Assembly: GCA_014380815.1 (NCBI GenBank)
Contig: JACMJB010000017.1
Location: 1 to 47,321, forward strand
Direction: 5' to 3'
DNA length: 47,321 bases
Origin: Armatimonadota bacterium
GTDB lineage: Bacteria; Armatimonadota; Armatimonadia; Armatimonadales; Armatimonadaceae
This document shows positions 1 to 9,182 of this stretch, piece after piece. Under the pieces are notes generated by a model. It was not told the origin of the DNA and ran no database searches. It was given only the letters and a program-made list of their open reading frames with translations. The translations under genes and the position numbers were made by a program. How positions within the stretch are numbered: the stretch's first letter is position 1; every line of letters begins with the position of its first letter.

Positions 1-122
1 CGCAGCTCGCTCGTGGGTTTGGAGAGGGCATTCGTGAATTCAAAAAATCCATGAATGGCGACGAGCCAGAGACCCCCGCGAAGCCTGCTGCTCAGAGCGA
101 ATCAGACACCCCGGCGAAGTAA
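1..122 (+). CDS. tatA: TatA/E-type twin-arginine translocase subunit, C-terminal fragment
   Basis: Partial gene cut by the left window edge; the reading frame begins at base 3 and ends in TAA at 120-122. The 39 visible residues begin QLARGFGEGIREFKKSM, the conserved end of the TatA transmembrane/amphipathic helix region (LARGxGxGIxEFKK), followed by a short charged and Ala/Pro-rich tail typical of TatA. TatA proteins oligomerise in the inner membrane to form the translocation path for folded Tat substrates. Two proteins in this window carry apparent Tat signals, the phosphoesterase at 32272 and the DUF1501 protein at 43821. secG follows 26 bp downstream, so the two may be cotranscribed. The N-terminal membrane helix lies outside the window; TatA and TatB/E cannot be fully separated on this tail. 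Confidence 0.8.
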   Translation, partial: QLARGFGEGIREFKKSMNGDEPETPAKPAAQSESDTPAK

Positions 123-148: not shown

Positions 149-400
149 TTGCAGATATTAGTCAACTTATTGACCGGCATCCTGGTGGTGCTGTCGCTGT
201 GTCTGATCACCGTCGTTGTGATGCAGACCCCTAAGTCCGAAGGGTTCGGCGGTGGGGTACAGAATACCCCCGGTGGCACATTCCGTGGCAAAGCGGGCTA
301 CGATGAGATGCTGTCGAACTACACGCGCATGATCGCTGTCGGCTGGTTCGCTTCTGCGTTCTTGCTCGCGATCTTCCATAATCTGACCAAGGCCAGCTGA
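149..400 (+). CDS. secG: SecG preprotein translocase subunit
   Basis: An 83-residue protein with two hydrophobic segments (about residues 2-23 and 59-78) separated by a Gly-rich loop (SEGFGGGVQNTPGGTFRG), the classic SecG topology. SecG joins SecYE in the Sec translocon and helps SecA-driven export across the inner membrane. The start is TTG at 149, preceded by AAAGGGA about 6 nt upstream; no ATG lies further upstream in frame near it. It follows tatA closely and is closed by a strong hairpin terminator at 425-460. Length and loop match bacterial SecG (about 70-110 residues). Confidence 0.9.
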   Translation: MQILVNLLTGILVVLSLCLITVVVMQTPKSEGFGGGVQNTPGGTFRGKAGYDEMLSNYTRMIAVGWFASAFLLAIFHNLTKAS

Positions 401-689: not shown

Positions 690-1385
690 CTAGTACCGGC
701 GCATCATCCCGATCACCCGCCCGACCACCTCTGGACTCGGGCTGGCCAATCCCTCGCCTGTAGCGGCGAGCAGCAGGGCGTTGTCCAGCGCCTCCGCGGC
801 ACGCCCCACCGTGATGTCGCCCTGATGCAGGGTCACGATAAGCTCCCCGGGAATCGCGCTCTGCTGCGGGCGGACCACCAGCAGATCTCCGGGGACAATG
901 GGTTCCCCATAAACTCCAGTTGCACCGACCCGAATCACAAAACCGTTTTCCAGGGCAGACCCCGCGACCTCTTCGGAGACGGTGATGTATCGCTCGACCT
1001 CGACGCCGGTATTCAGCTTCTCGCCCGTGACCCCGACCCCCGACCCGCTCTGCCACACGCCGCTTCTGCGGACCAGCGGCAGCCGCACGGAAGACTCTGT
1101 TTTGCCGGTTCCGGTTCGTGCGGATGTGACCGTGCCGCCGGTCACCCCACTGATATCGGCCTCCCGTGGGTCCGGAGCGGTGATGCGGATCGAACGGGAG
1201 GTACGCTCACGGGTCATAAACCCTTTCCGCACCAGGGCGTCCAGATGAACCGTTACCCCGCGAAGACTGCCTATTTCAAACGCATCGCCCAGTTCACGAA
1301 TCGTTGGAGGAAACCCATTTTCTTTTTGGAAATCAATAATGAATTCCAATATCTTTCGCTGCTTTTCCGTCAGCCCCTTAGCCAT
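690..1385 (-). CDS. lexA: LexA-family repressor lacking the self-cleavage residues
   Basis: 231 residues. Residues 1-65 are the LexA winged helix (LTEKQRKILEFI, GFPPTIRELGDAF, SLRGVTVHLDALVRKGF), which binds SOS operators. A linker of about 50 residues, longer than in E. coli LexA, leads to a C-terminal S24-type fold (FVIRVGATG, IVPGDLLVV, GDITVGR). In active LexA the Ser of the GxSM motif and a Lys 37 residues later cleave an Ala-Gly bond after RecA activation. Here Gly157 sits at the Ser position, Gly194 at the Lys position (also 37 apart), and the aligned cleavage site is Thr120-Gly121. Self-cleavage should therefore be absent. It may still dimerise and bind DNA. Start ATG at 1385; the promoter at 1416-1444 carries a palindrome that may be its own operator. 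Family assignment is firm; loss of SOS-type induction is inference. Confidence 0.85.
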   Translation of the reverse strand: MAKGLTEKQRKILEFIIDFQKENGFPPTIRELGDAFEIGSLRGVTVHLDALVRKGFMTRERTSRSIRITAPDPREADISGVTGGTVTSARTGTGKTESSVRLPLVRRSGVWQSGSGVGVTGEKLNTGVEVERYITVSEEVAGSALENGFVIRVGATGVYGEPIVPGDLLVVRPQQSAIPGELIVTLHQGDITVGRAAEALDNALLLAATGEGLASPSPEVVGRVIGMMRRY

Positions 1386-1415: not shown

Positions 1416-1444
1416 ATTATACGCGCAAGCTTGCAGGCACGCAA
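1416..1444 (-). promoter_or_regulatory. lexA promoter with palindromic operator candidate
   Basis: On the minus strand, -35 TTGCGT (1444-1439), 17-nt spacer, -10 TATAAT (1421-1416, perfect consensus). The spacer contains the 10-bp palindrome GCAAGCTTGC at 1425-1434, ideally placed for a repressor to block RNA polymerase, consistent with autoregulation by the adjacent LexA-like protein. It does not match the E. coli (CTGT-N8-ACAG) or B. subtilis (GAAC-N4-GTTC) boxes. Confidence 0.65.
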
Positions 1445-1701: not shown

Positions 1702-3579
1702 ATGAAAAACGTTTCGCCAGCGAACCGTCGGTCTGCCCCCGGTATTGCTGCTGCCTCTGTTAGAAACCTCCTCCTTGCGGCTGCCGCTGTGACGGCATCA
1801 TCGCTGGCTCTGACGCCCGCGACTGCCTCGCCCGCCCGCCCGCTGTGGCAGCCGCCCTCAGAAGTCGCCCCCGTGCCCGCGCCGGTGATTCGAGCCGTCT
1901 CCATCACTGGCAACAAAGAGCTTCCCACCGGTTTGATCTCCGACGCCGCCGCGAAGAGCATCTTTGGAAAGCCCGGAGACGAAGCGGCGGTTCGAGCGGC
2001 GGTCCTGGCGGTCATCCAAGTCTACCGATCCCGTAGTCTGCCGGTCGCACAGGTCGTCAGCACGGAGGTAACCTCGGACGGGGTCCTGCGCCTCACGATC
2101 GCCGAAGGAACGGTCCGCCGTATTGTCGTCCGAGGCAACGCAAAAACCCGCACGGGTATCATCCTCAAGGTACTGGAAACGAAGCCGGGGAGTGTCTATC
2201 GCTCTGACCGGGCGAAAAACGACCGGAACCAACTGGCAAGGCTCGGCATCTTCGCGGATGTGATCGTCGCGCCGGTCGTGCCGGGGGCCGCTGATACCCC
2301 GGACCCCACGACCCCGGCCACCACTGCGGGGGGCAAAGCAGGGGATAAGGCGGCGAATGAGGGTACGGTGCCCAACCCAACGGCCCCTCCGCCCGGCACG
2401 AGCAAAGGAAACGAGGAGGTTGGTGGGATCGGAAACCCTCCTCCCGCCCCGACGCCCGCATCTGGCGATAAAGCCGCCGAGGCGGCAGCGCCGCCGACCC
2501 CGGCGACCCCTCCGCCCACCGCCGACGAAGATGTGGTCGGACTGGTGGATGTGGTGGTACGAGTGAAGGAGGTCCGTACCGGCAATGTCGCCGCGACGTT
2601 CGGCTACAGCGACAACAGCGGTCTAAATGGCTTTCTGGACCTGACGGAGAACAATATCGGGGGTTCCGCCCAGCGGATCGCGGTTCAGTGGCAGCGGCTC
2701 AGCATCCTGCGGACAGACCAGTTTGGGAATCAGTTCCAGGATGGTGCGCGCCAGGCGTTCAACATCTCGTACGCTCAGCCCGCGCTGTCGTCCCGCTCCC
2801 TGGCCTACGGAGTGGATCTCTACAACAAGCAGACGGTCTTCCAGCCCTTCTTCTCTCGCAATCAGGACTCCATCCGCAACTACGAGACGCGCCGTGGCGG
2901 CAGCGCTCGCGTTGGTCGCCTGATCTCGCGCAAAGCATCCCTTTACCTATCGGTGCGTAACGATAGGATCGGCTACGAAGACTTTCTCAACATACCCTCC
3001 GATCTGAATGTGCCCCAGGACCTGATTGATGGCGCCGATTCCACGATCGGCGCGGTCGGCCTCAATCTGGTTCTCGACGGTCGAAACGACGCCGATAACC
3101 CGCGATACGGCTACCTGAACTCGTTTATCGTGGAGCAGGCGGGGAGTTTCCTGGGGGGTAATCGCAACTTCGGGCAGGCCCGCGTGGATCTCCGGCAATA
3201 TTTTGCGCTGCGCCCCGGCGCAACGCCTCCGGTTTTCGCGGTCCGCCTTTTGGGAGGGACGTCATTCGGCGGCAACGTTCCGCTCCCGGAATACTTCTTC
3301 CTTGGCGGGTTCGATCTGTTGCGCGGCTATAACCTGTACTCTATCTACGGCGAGCGGATGGTCCTTGGATCGGCGGAGTTCCGAGCGCCCCTGTCCGAAG
3401 GGGTCCAGGGCGTTCTCTTTGTAGACAGTGGCAGCGCCTTCGGCTCCGCGAATTCGTTCTCGCTCAAGACCGGAGCCGGGGTAGGACTGCGCTTTCTGAC
3501 GCCCATCGGGCCGATTCGCGTGGATATCGCCCAGGGAAATCGGCTGCAGACCTATATCTCCCTGGGGCAATCGTTCTAG
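1702..3579 (+). CDS. Omp85/BamA-family outer membrane protein with POTRA insertion
   Basis: 625 residues with an N-terminal export signal (basic start, then LLLAAAAVTASSLALTPATA). Two POTRA-like domains follow: about 66-140 (VSITGNKELP ... LTIAEG) and about 141-290 (VRRIVVRGNAKTR ... RLGIFADVIVAPVV, resuming at VGLVDVVVRVKEVR). The second is split by roughly 80 residues of Pro/Ala/Gly/Thr-rich low complexity (about 194-276). Residues 291-625 are the 16-strand barrel, with the loop-6 LLRGY signature near 541 and a terminal aromatic (GQSF) matching the beta-signal recognised by Bam machinery. Omp85 proteins insert or export proteins at the outer membrane; with only two POTRAs this could be the BamA equivalent or a TamA/FhaC-like relative. 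Start is ATG at 1702. It stands alone, convergent with the phosphate transporter 10 bp downstream. Confidence 0.85.
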   Translation: MKNVSPANRRSAPGIAAASVRNLLLAAAAVTASSLALTPATASPARPLWQPPSEVAPVPAPVIRAVSITGNKELPTGLISDAAAKSIFGKPGDEAAVRAAVLAVIQVYRSRSLPVAQVVSTEVTSDGVLRLTIAEGTVRRIVVRGNAKTRTGIILKVLETKPGSVYRSDRAKNDRNQLARLGIFADVIVAPVVPGAADTPDPTTPATTAGGKAGDKAANEGTVPNPTAPPPGTSKGNEEVGGIGNPPPAPTPASGDKAAEAAAPPTPATPPPTADEDVVGLVDVVVRVKEVRTGNVAATFGYSDNSGLNGFLDLTENNIGGSAQRIAVQWQRLSILRTDQFGNQFQDGARQAFNISYAQPALSSRSLAYGVDLYNKQTVFQPFFSRNQDSIRNYETRRGGSARVGRLISRKASLYLSVRNDRIGYEDFLNIPSDLNVPQDLIDGADSTIGAVGLNLVLDGRNDADNPRYGYLNSFIVEQAGSFLGGNRNFGQARVDLRQYFALRPGATPPVFAVRLLGGTSFGGNVPLPEYFFLGGFDLLRGYNLYSIYGERMVLGSAEFRAPLSEGVQGVLFVDSGSAFGSANSFSLKTGAGVGLRFLTPIGPIRVDIAQGNRLQTYISLGQSF

Positions 3580-7328: not shown

Positions 7329-9182
7329 CTAGCGGCTCTGCTCCTGCTTTTCGGAGCGGCGACGCAGCTTCGCATCCAGTTCACGCTTGCGCATCCGCAC
7401 ATTCCGGGGCGTCACTTCCAGCAGGTCGTCGGGACCGATCTGCTCAATGCAACGGTCCAGACTCATGTCTATCGGGCGTGTCAGCCGAACCGACACATCT
7501 GAGTTGGAGGACCGCATGTTCGTAAGCTGCTTCATCTTGCAGACATTGACCTCGAGATCCCCTTCTCGCTGGTGCCTTCCAACGATCATCCCTTCGTACA
7601 CCTCTACCCCCGCTGCCAGGTAAAGCTCCCCCCGCTCTTCAGCATTGAACAGGCCAAAAGCGGTGGTCTGCCCCGTTTCGGAGGCAATCAGCGAACCCTG
7701 CCGGTTTCGCGTGATTTCCCCTGCCCAGGGTCCGAACTTTTCGAAGAGGGTGGAAAGAACGCCCGTGCCACGAGTCAGGGTCAGGAAGGCGGAGCGGAAG
7801 CCCAGGAGGCCGCGGGTTGGAATCACAAACTCCAGGCGGGTTCCGCCGCGCTCGCCCGCGCGCATATCGAGAAGCTCGCCCCGTCGTGATCCCAGCGCTT
7901 CCATGACCGCGCCCTGATACTGCTCGTCCACGGAGATCAGCACGCGCTCATACGGCTCCTCTCGCTGCCCATTCTCCCCCGTTCGGAAGATGACCTGGGG
8001 CATGGAGACCTGAAGCTCATAACCCTCGCGGCGCATCGCCTCGATCAGGACCGCCAGGTGGAGTTCCCCACGTCCGAAGACAACAAACGAGTCCGGCGAA
8101 TCCGTCTCCTGCACCTTGAGCGAGACATTCGTCTCCAGTTCCTTCATCAGGCGCTCCCGTAGCTTGCGGGAGGTGGAGAACTGCCCTTCGCGGCCTGTGA
8201 ACGGCGAGGTGTTTACGCCGAAGGTCATCTGCAGGGTCGGTTCGTCCACGTTCGGAGCCGGCAACTGCTGCGGGTTATCGCCGGTGGCGATCGTCTCGCC
8301 GATGGTGATCTCCGGCAGCCCGGTGACCGCGATAATATCTCCAGGGAGCGCCTCCTCAACGGGGACCCGCTTCAGACCCTCGTAGACAAAGACGCCCTGC
8401 GACCGTGCCTGATATGATGTGGCGTCGCGTCGGAAGATGGTGACTGCCTGGCTCGGCTTCAGCGAACCCGCGAAAACCTTGCCGATCCCCAGCCGTCCCA
8501 GATAGGGATCGCCGTCAATCGTCGAGATCAGCGCCTGAACCGGGTCATCCGGCCCCCCCAGTGTCTTCGGCGCGGGGATATGATTGACGATCGTCTCGAA
8601 CAGAGGCTGAAGATTGGTGGGCGGCTGGGAAAGATCGGTGGTCGCCTTGCCTTCGAGGGCGATGGCGTAAACAATCGGGAAGTCAAGCTGCTCATCGGTC
8701 GCGCCAAGGGCCGCGAACAGGTCGAAGGTCTGGTCAATCACCCAGTCGGGTCGGGCATCGGGGCGGTCAATCTTGTTGACGACTACAACGGCTTTATGCC
8801 CGGCCTGCAGGGCTTTCTCCAGCACAAAGCGGGTCTGGGGCATCGGTCCATCCACCGCATCCACCAGTAGAAGGACGCCGTCCACCACCAGCATGACGCG
8901 CTCCACCTCGCCGCCGAAGTCCGCGTGCCCCGGCGTATCCACGACGTTGATCTTGTGACCGTTGTGGGTGATCGCGGTGTGCTTGGAGACGATCGTGATT
9001 CCGCGCTCTTTCTCCTGGTCCATGCGGTCCATGACGCGCACCGCGATCTCCTGGTTCTCACGGTAGACGCCCCCCTGTCGGAGCATGCCGTCAAGCAGGG
9101 TGGTCTTGCCGTGGTCAACGTGGGCGATGATCGCGATGTTGCGTAAGTTGGTGTTATTCTTGGTGCTGGTTGCGGTAGTCAT
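7329..9182 (-). CDS. typA: TypA/BipA translational GTPase
   Basis: 617 residues from ATG at 9182. It has the EF-G-like GTPase domain: P-loop [15 protein letters not shown], switch [32 protein letters not shown], and NKIDRPDAR. Domains II, III and V and the BipA C-terminal domain follow ([22 protein letters not shown]; ending with Arg/Lys-rich residues). TypA binds the ribosome in place of EF-G/EF4 and helps ribosome assembly and stress or low-temperature growth. An upstream in-frame ATG at 9224 would add 14 residues, but it lies immediately after a terminator-like hairpin and lacks a clear ribosome site; the 9182 start fits the family better. The leader is unusual (see hairpin at 9226-9272). 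Divergent from the GGDEF-EAL gene. Confidence 0.95.

Follow-up and report, generated by a model that had tools for sequence, protein, structure and literature searches.

The LexA protein of Synechocystis sp. PCC 6803 lacks both the Ala-Gly cleavage site and the catalytic Ser, and it is thought to remain uncleaved (PMC3091678, PMC7567884). This regulator represses genes unrelated to the SOS response in a graded fashion, possibly through phosphorylation (PMC3091678, PMC7567884, PMC4759255). Other bacteria harbor more than one LexA, or unusual versions of it. Leptospira interrogans carries two lexA genes, whose products LexA1 and LexA2 share low mutual identity (PMC3789691), and the non-canonical LexA proteins of Bacteroidetes are divergent S24-domain repressors. 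Duplication of lexA followed by divergence of the recognized motif is a described route (PMC8565304).

The DNA analysed here, referred to as the window, is a whole stretch of 47,321 nucleotides (contig JACMJB010000017.1) from the genome of an Armatimonadota bacterium, and it encodes a LexA-like protein for which the non-cleavable LexA of Synechocystis 6803 is the nearest precedent. The reading favored here, with a probability of about 0.68, is that this protein is a neofunctionalised paralogue derived from the type-A LexA lineage of the phylum, which has lost RecA-stimulated self-cleavage and now persists as a dimeric repressor with a LexA fold, working outside the SOS switch. A literature search retrieved nothing relevant on LexA in Armatimonadota, and no precedent for a fully dead LexA paralogue residing beside an intact LexA.

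The LexA-like gene and its domains

The first-pass annotation had placed a LexA-like repressor at this locus. The open reading frame is real, with its ATG start at position 1385, but the annotation gave no strand; the gene lies on the minus strand, and the plus-strand frame over the same interval is meaningless (Table 1). The winged-helix DNA-binding domain is clearly recognized, PF01726 (LexA_DNA_bind) scoring 60 bits against a cut-off of 23.7. The match to Peptidase_S24, at 23.3 bits, falls exactly at the Pfam cut-off, and the three orthologues described below score under it or give no match at all. TIGR00498, which models the lexA functional equivalog with a curated cut-off of 110.95 bits, gives 88.9 bits for the window protein and 85-91 for its orthologues, all of them below that value. 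In a sequence comparison with solved structures, LexA proteins match best, with that of T. maritima (3k2z) on top.

A structure model of the window protein was built from a 5-row alignment. Its mean pLDDT of 69.7 corresponds to moderate confidence, and residues 109-127, the cleavage loop, are the least confident part, with values below 50. When this model is compared with the PDB using Foldseek, LexA structures rank first (E 1e-12), the DNA-binding domain reaching a TM of 0.88 to 1lea and the C-terminal domain about 0.6 to LexA C-domains. The Pfam match at the cut-off and the Foldseek results, at the moderate confidence of the model, support retention of the S24 fold, in keeping with the first impression that both the winged helix and this fold look intact.

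Table 1. Features of the LexA paralogue locus, in window coordinates
Feature	Position	Strand	Basis
Non-catalytic LexA paralogue gene, 231 aa	690..1385, stop codon included	minus	ORF list, Pfam, TIGR00498, orthologue alignment
LexA winged-helix DNA-binding domain, residues 3-61	1203..1379	minus	PF01726 60 bits, genome search, alignment
Degenerate cleavage-loop region, residues 109-127, T120-G121 tentatively replacing Ala-Gly; unconserved among orthologues	1005..1061	minus	alignment, model
Degenerate S24 (LexA C-terminal) domain, residues 129-198 (Pfam span)	792..1001	minus	PF00717 23.3 bits
Gly157 codon, nucleophilic Ser position (E. coli S119), within conserved RVGA[TS]G[VI]	915..917	minus	alignments
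Gly194 codon, general-base Lys position (E. coli K156); orthologues Q, Q, L	804..806	minus	alignments
Putative promoter, TTGCGT-N17-TATAAT	1416..1444	minus	upstream of paralogue gene; read by eye
secG, tail-to-tail neighbor, kept beside the paralogue in relatives examined	149..400	plus	PF03840 50.6 bits
tatA-like gene, 3' end, conserved neighbor in relatives examined	3..122	plus	TatA_B_E match in a relative

Loss of the self-cleavage residues

Alignment with cleavable relatives is gap-free at the Ser motif, where RVGATGV stands opposite RVKGDSM, and ITVGR pairs with ATVKR at the Lys motif. The Ser-Lys dyad is thus absent, being replaced by Gly157 and Gly194 as had been read from the sequence at the outset, and the spacing of 37 between the two positions is correct. 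The three orthologues combine Gly at the first position with Gln, Gln or Leu at the second. The Gly/Gly state is therefore conserved at the Ser position, which is Gly in all four proteins, but not at the Lys position, which is not always Gly.

The scissile bond has disappeared as well, neither Ala-Gly nor Cys-Gly being present. At best it corresponds to Thr120-Gly121; the numbering proposed for this pair is right, but its equivalence to the scissile pair is tentative, because an insertion lies in this stretch, the orthologues differ from one another here (TG, DG, GG and ND) and the model has its lowest confidence there (pLDDT below 50). A catalytic dyad relocated elsewhere in the domain was also considered. 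The C-terminal domains of the four orthologues contain no invariant Ser, Thr, Cys, Lys or His, so that a relocated dyad is ruled out as a common feature. As all the catalytic features are lost in the four orthologues and no invariant nucleophile or base replaces them, the window protein very probably cannot cleave itself, as originally suggested.

Probable SOS control by an intact LexA

The same genome encodes a second LexA (contig C432), the cleavable one that it had seemed worth looking for, with intact VAAG, GDSM and TVK motifs and a TIGR00498 score of 218.8 bits, together with UmuD and UmuC (contig C395) and RecA (contig C167). Promoters of lexA genes of this second type, type B, share the sequence GCAAAC-N4-GTTTGC, and predicted boxes with 0-1 mismatch lie upstream of lexA, cinA, ruvB and gyrB in this genome. 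The cinA box is at C167:6217, and recA follows further along the same contig, at 8126. A few other strict sites are found at genes with no SOS role. At two mismatches the pattern is too degenerate, with 140 sites barely above the 126 of the control, and the regulon of the intact LexA therefore rests on the sites with 0-1 mismatch. The predicted boxes comprise L086 (C432:7569), L081 (C167:6217), L083 (C179:8381) and L084 (C411:781).

By its residues and boxes, the intact type-B LexA evidently runs the SOS response of the cell. The idea that SOS-type control would need another mechanism, such as degradation or a partner protease, does not follow, since a cleavable LexA with predicted boxes at SOS genes is present. 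Most likely, the window protein, a paralogue from the other LexA lineage, does not run this response and represses something else.

The recA contig also encodes a 479-aa protein (C167:1261-2700, minus strand) in which a YhaM-like OB/HD exoribonuclease is fused to a LexA-type S24 domain. Its NF010007 score of 118.6 bits is below the cut-off of 460, and its S24 domain has intact GLVAAG, GDSM and VIKRF motifs. Full-length fusions keeping AAG, Ser and Lys occur in four relatives (G005, G001, G016, G013), and the S24 part is degenerate in a fifth (G015; L164-L168 for all five). The nuclease could be released or inactivated through RecA-stimulated self-cleavage. No match for such a fusion was found in the literature search.

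Orthologues, phylogeny and selection

Three further orthologues, 56-58% identical, are found in the same Armatimonadota family, making four in total from three genera. All of them have full-length open frames, lack the AG site, and share the motif RVGA[TS]G...EP..PGDLL and the C-terminal strand VVGRVIG.RRY. The distribution is patchy: the dead paralogue occurs in 4 of the 12 genomes of the family, LexA in all 19 genomes of the order, and every LexA examined in the order is intact except for these four. Among 51 LexA proteins extracted from the phylum, 47 retain Ser and Lys together with an AG (or GG) site, the other four being the dead clade; in 22 additional type-A proteins the Lys is always kept, and a strict Ser-motif pattern is matched in 18. 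In a search of 291 genomes of the phylum, the four non-catalytic members are the only ones at high score among the matches listed, and a scan of genome contigs yielded these three relatives again and, besides them, a single type-A LexA of the cleavable kind. The best listed matches in phages, plasmids and viral contigs are distant (< 30% identity) or absent, the exception being a short stretch of the DNA-binding domain matched at 49%, so that nothing in them points to a mobile origin.

The four dead orthologues group together in the tree (support 100/100). Their clade, whose stem is 1.36 changes per site long, falls outside type B, itself a well-supported group (98/98). With 495 contigs and 2.46% contamination, the genome is a fragmented MAG, and a foreign contig or erroneous catalytic codons might have been suspected. 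Independent MAGs, however, show the same residue state, and G000 pairs with G006, and G001 with G007, in the paralogue tree as in the intact-LexA tree, which argues against misbinning; a binning or assembly artefact is in practice refuted.

The gene is under purifying selection. For the closest pair of orthologues, dN/dS is 0.245/1.33, about 0.18, with 0.04 for the DNA-binding domain and 0.25 for the C-terminal domain, compared with 0.036 for the intact LexA pair from these two genomes; the figures are rough, as dS is high. Selection on the C-terminal domain is relaxed, which leaves some room for slow decay. The patchy occurrence, the long stem and the weak S24 scores would fit a decaying duplicate on its way to becoming a pseudogene, but this explanation is very unlikely given the full-length open frames retained in four genomes at 56-58% identity, a dN/dS far below 1 with a strongly conserved DNA-binding domain, and the acquisition of a new conserved motif along with conserved synteny.

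Two LexA lineages and candidate operators

Two LexA lineages occur in Armatimonadota and differ in their recognition helices, which are SLRGVTVHLDAL in type A and SSC(S/T)V-like in type B. The recognition helix of the paralogue, GSLRGVTVHLDAL, is the same as in the cleavable type-A lineage, and its DNA specificity may be conserved like the helix itself. GTAGAC is found in the promoters of cleavable type-A lexA genes, where it often takes the form GTAGAC-N18-GTCTAC or AGTAGACG-N3-GT-N2-GT around the -10 box. In L012, L016, L018, L049 and L095-L116, a candidate type-A operator upstream of lexA overlaps the promoter core. The orthologue in G006 keeps GTCTAC just past its TATAAT; the promoter of the window gene does not, and motif comparison found no GTAGAC operator overlapping it. 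In the genomes with the non-catalytic protein, GTAGAC-N18-GTCTAC and AGTAGACGNNNGTNNGT are no more frequent than a reversed-pattern control or than in family members without the paralogue. Gapped inverted or direct repeats common to the four paralogue promoters are no better than those in shuffled sequences, and these promoters share no dyad. The promoter and genome motif searches thus yielded no operator or target of the paralogue. Separately, one genome of family f2 (G014) encodes three LexA paralogues (L014, L043, L077) with different recognition helices and the dyad intact in all.

LexA dimerises through its C-terminal domain. Since the paralogue keeps a LexA-like C-terminal domain, with the VVGRVIG.RRY strand conserved, it might act as an SOS modulator that competes or heterodimerises with the intact LexA, keeping some SOS genes partly repressed or delaying their induction. 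Such a role is quite unlikely: the helix shared by the dead paralogue and type A (SLRGVTVHLDAL) differs from that of the intact LexA (SSCSVQKHLNQL), the two belong to separate lineages, the type-A operator is not enriched, and most genomes of the family lack the paralogue.

Genomic neighborhood and proposed role

In the relatives examined, the paralogue adjoins tatA, with secG between them or nearby. In the window, a gene for an Omp85/POTRA outer-membrane protein (1702-3579, plus strand; Omp85 120 bits) is divergent from the paralogue, and the 316-bp intergenic region between them would permit control by the latter; the relatives examined did not show this arrangement. It could also be envisaged that damage or stress induces the targets because another protease, Clp or Lon, removes the repressor; some LexA-like regulators are controlled in this way. 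LexA-like repressors outside the RecA self-cleavage paradigm do exist, IrvR being one (PMC7101444), but no degron or partner protease was identified and the neighborhood offers no pointer, so that this alternative is decidedly unlikely.

The favored model, that of a repressor outside the SOS switch, proposes that the paralogue arose from the type-A LexA lineage of the phylum and would bind DNA via its unchanged recognition helix, with the residual S24 domain serving dimerisation. It would repress genes unrelated to the SOS response and would have no DNA-damage switch, the separate intact type-B LexA presumably handling that response. Being non-cleavable, it would have to be tuned by its synthesis rate, degradation, modification or a ligand, and not by DNA damage. 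A more speculative proposal, on balance unlikely, is that the former active-site pocket has been rebuilt, as RVGA[TS]G[VI]xxEP[VI][VL]PGDLLV, into a sensor of a ligand or partner. The protein would then represent a new LexA-fold class beside an intact LexA, sensing something other than RecA filaments.

Comparison with known systems

The type-A LexA proteins of Armatimonadota (L012-L028, L049, L095-L116) have the same helix and domain order as the window protein and are its apparent parent lineage. They are cleavable by their residues, keeping AAG, Ser and Lys, and many have GTAGAC in their lexA promoters, whereas the window protein has neither. A coexistence of divergent LexA copies recalls Leptospira, although LexA2 there has retained its Ser-Lys dyad as well as a Cys-Gly bond (PMC3789691), all of which are lost here. 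The Bacteroidetes proteins resemble the paralogue in their motif divergence after duplication, but their scissile bond and dyad are preserved and they regulate the SOS response (PMC8565304), while the window protein has neither bond nor dyad.

The locus indicates that a duplicated LexA can lose its whole switch (Ser, Lys and cut site) and yet be selectively kept beside an intact LexA, and it suggests that what the S24 domain does for DNA binding and dimerisation is separable from its protease role. Within a single phylum, type A (cleavable), type B (cleavable) and dead type A make up a natural series for testing how a non-cleavable LexA is turned off.

The LexA of Synechocystis 6803 comes nearest, as it combines a LexA fold with the absence of Ala-Gly and catalytic Ser, sits on a long branch of the LexA tree and has non-SOS targets. 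The window protein parallels it in the residue loss and may do so in its targets. The Synechocystis protein is described as that organism's LexA, in which Ser is changed to Asp and AG to GG (PMC3091678), whereas the window protein is a paralogue standing beside an intact LexA, with both Ser and Lys gone.
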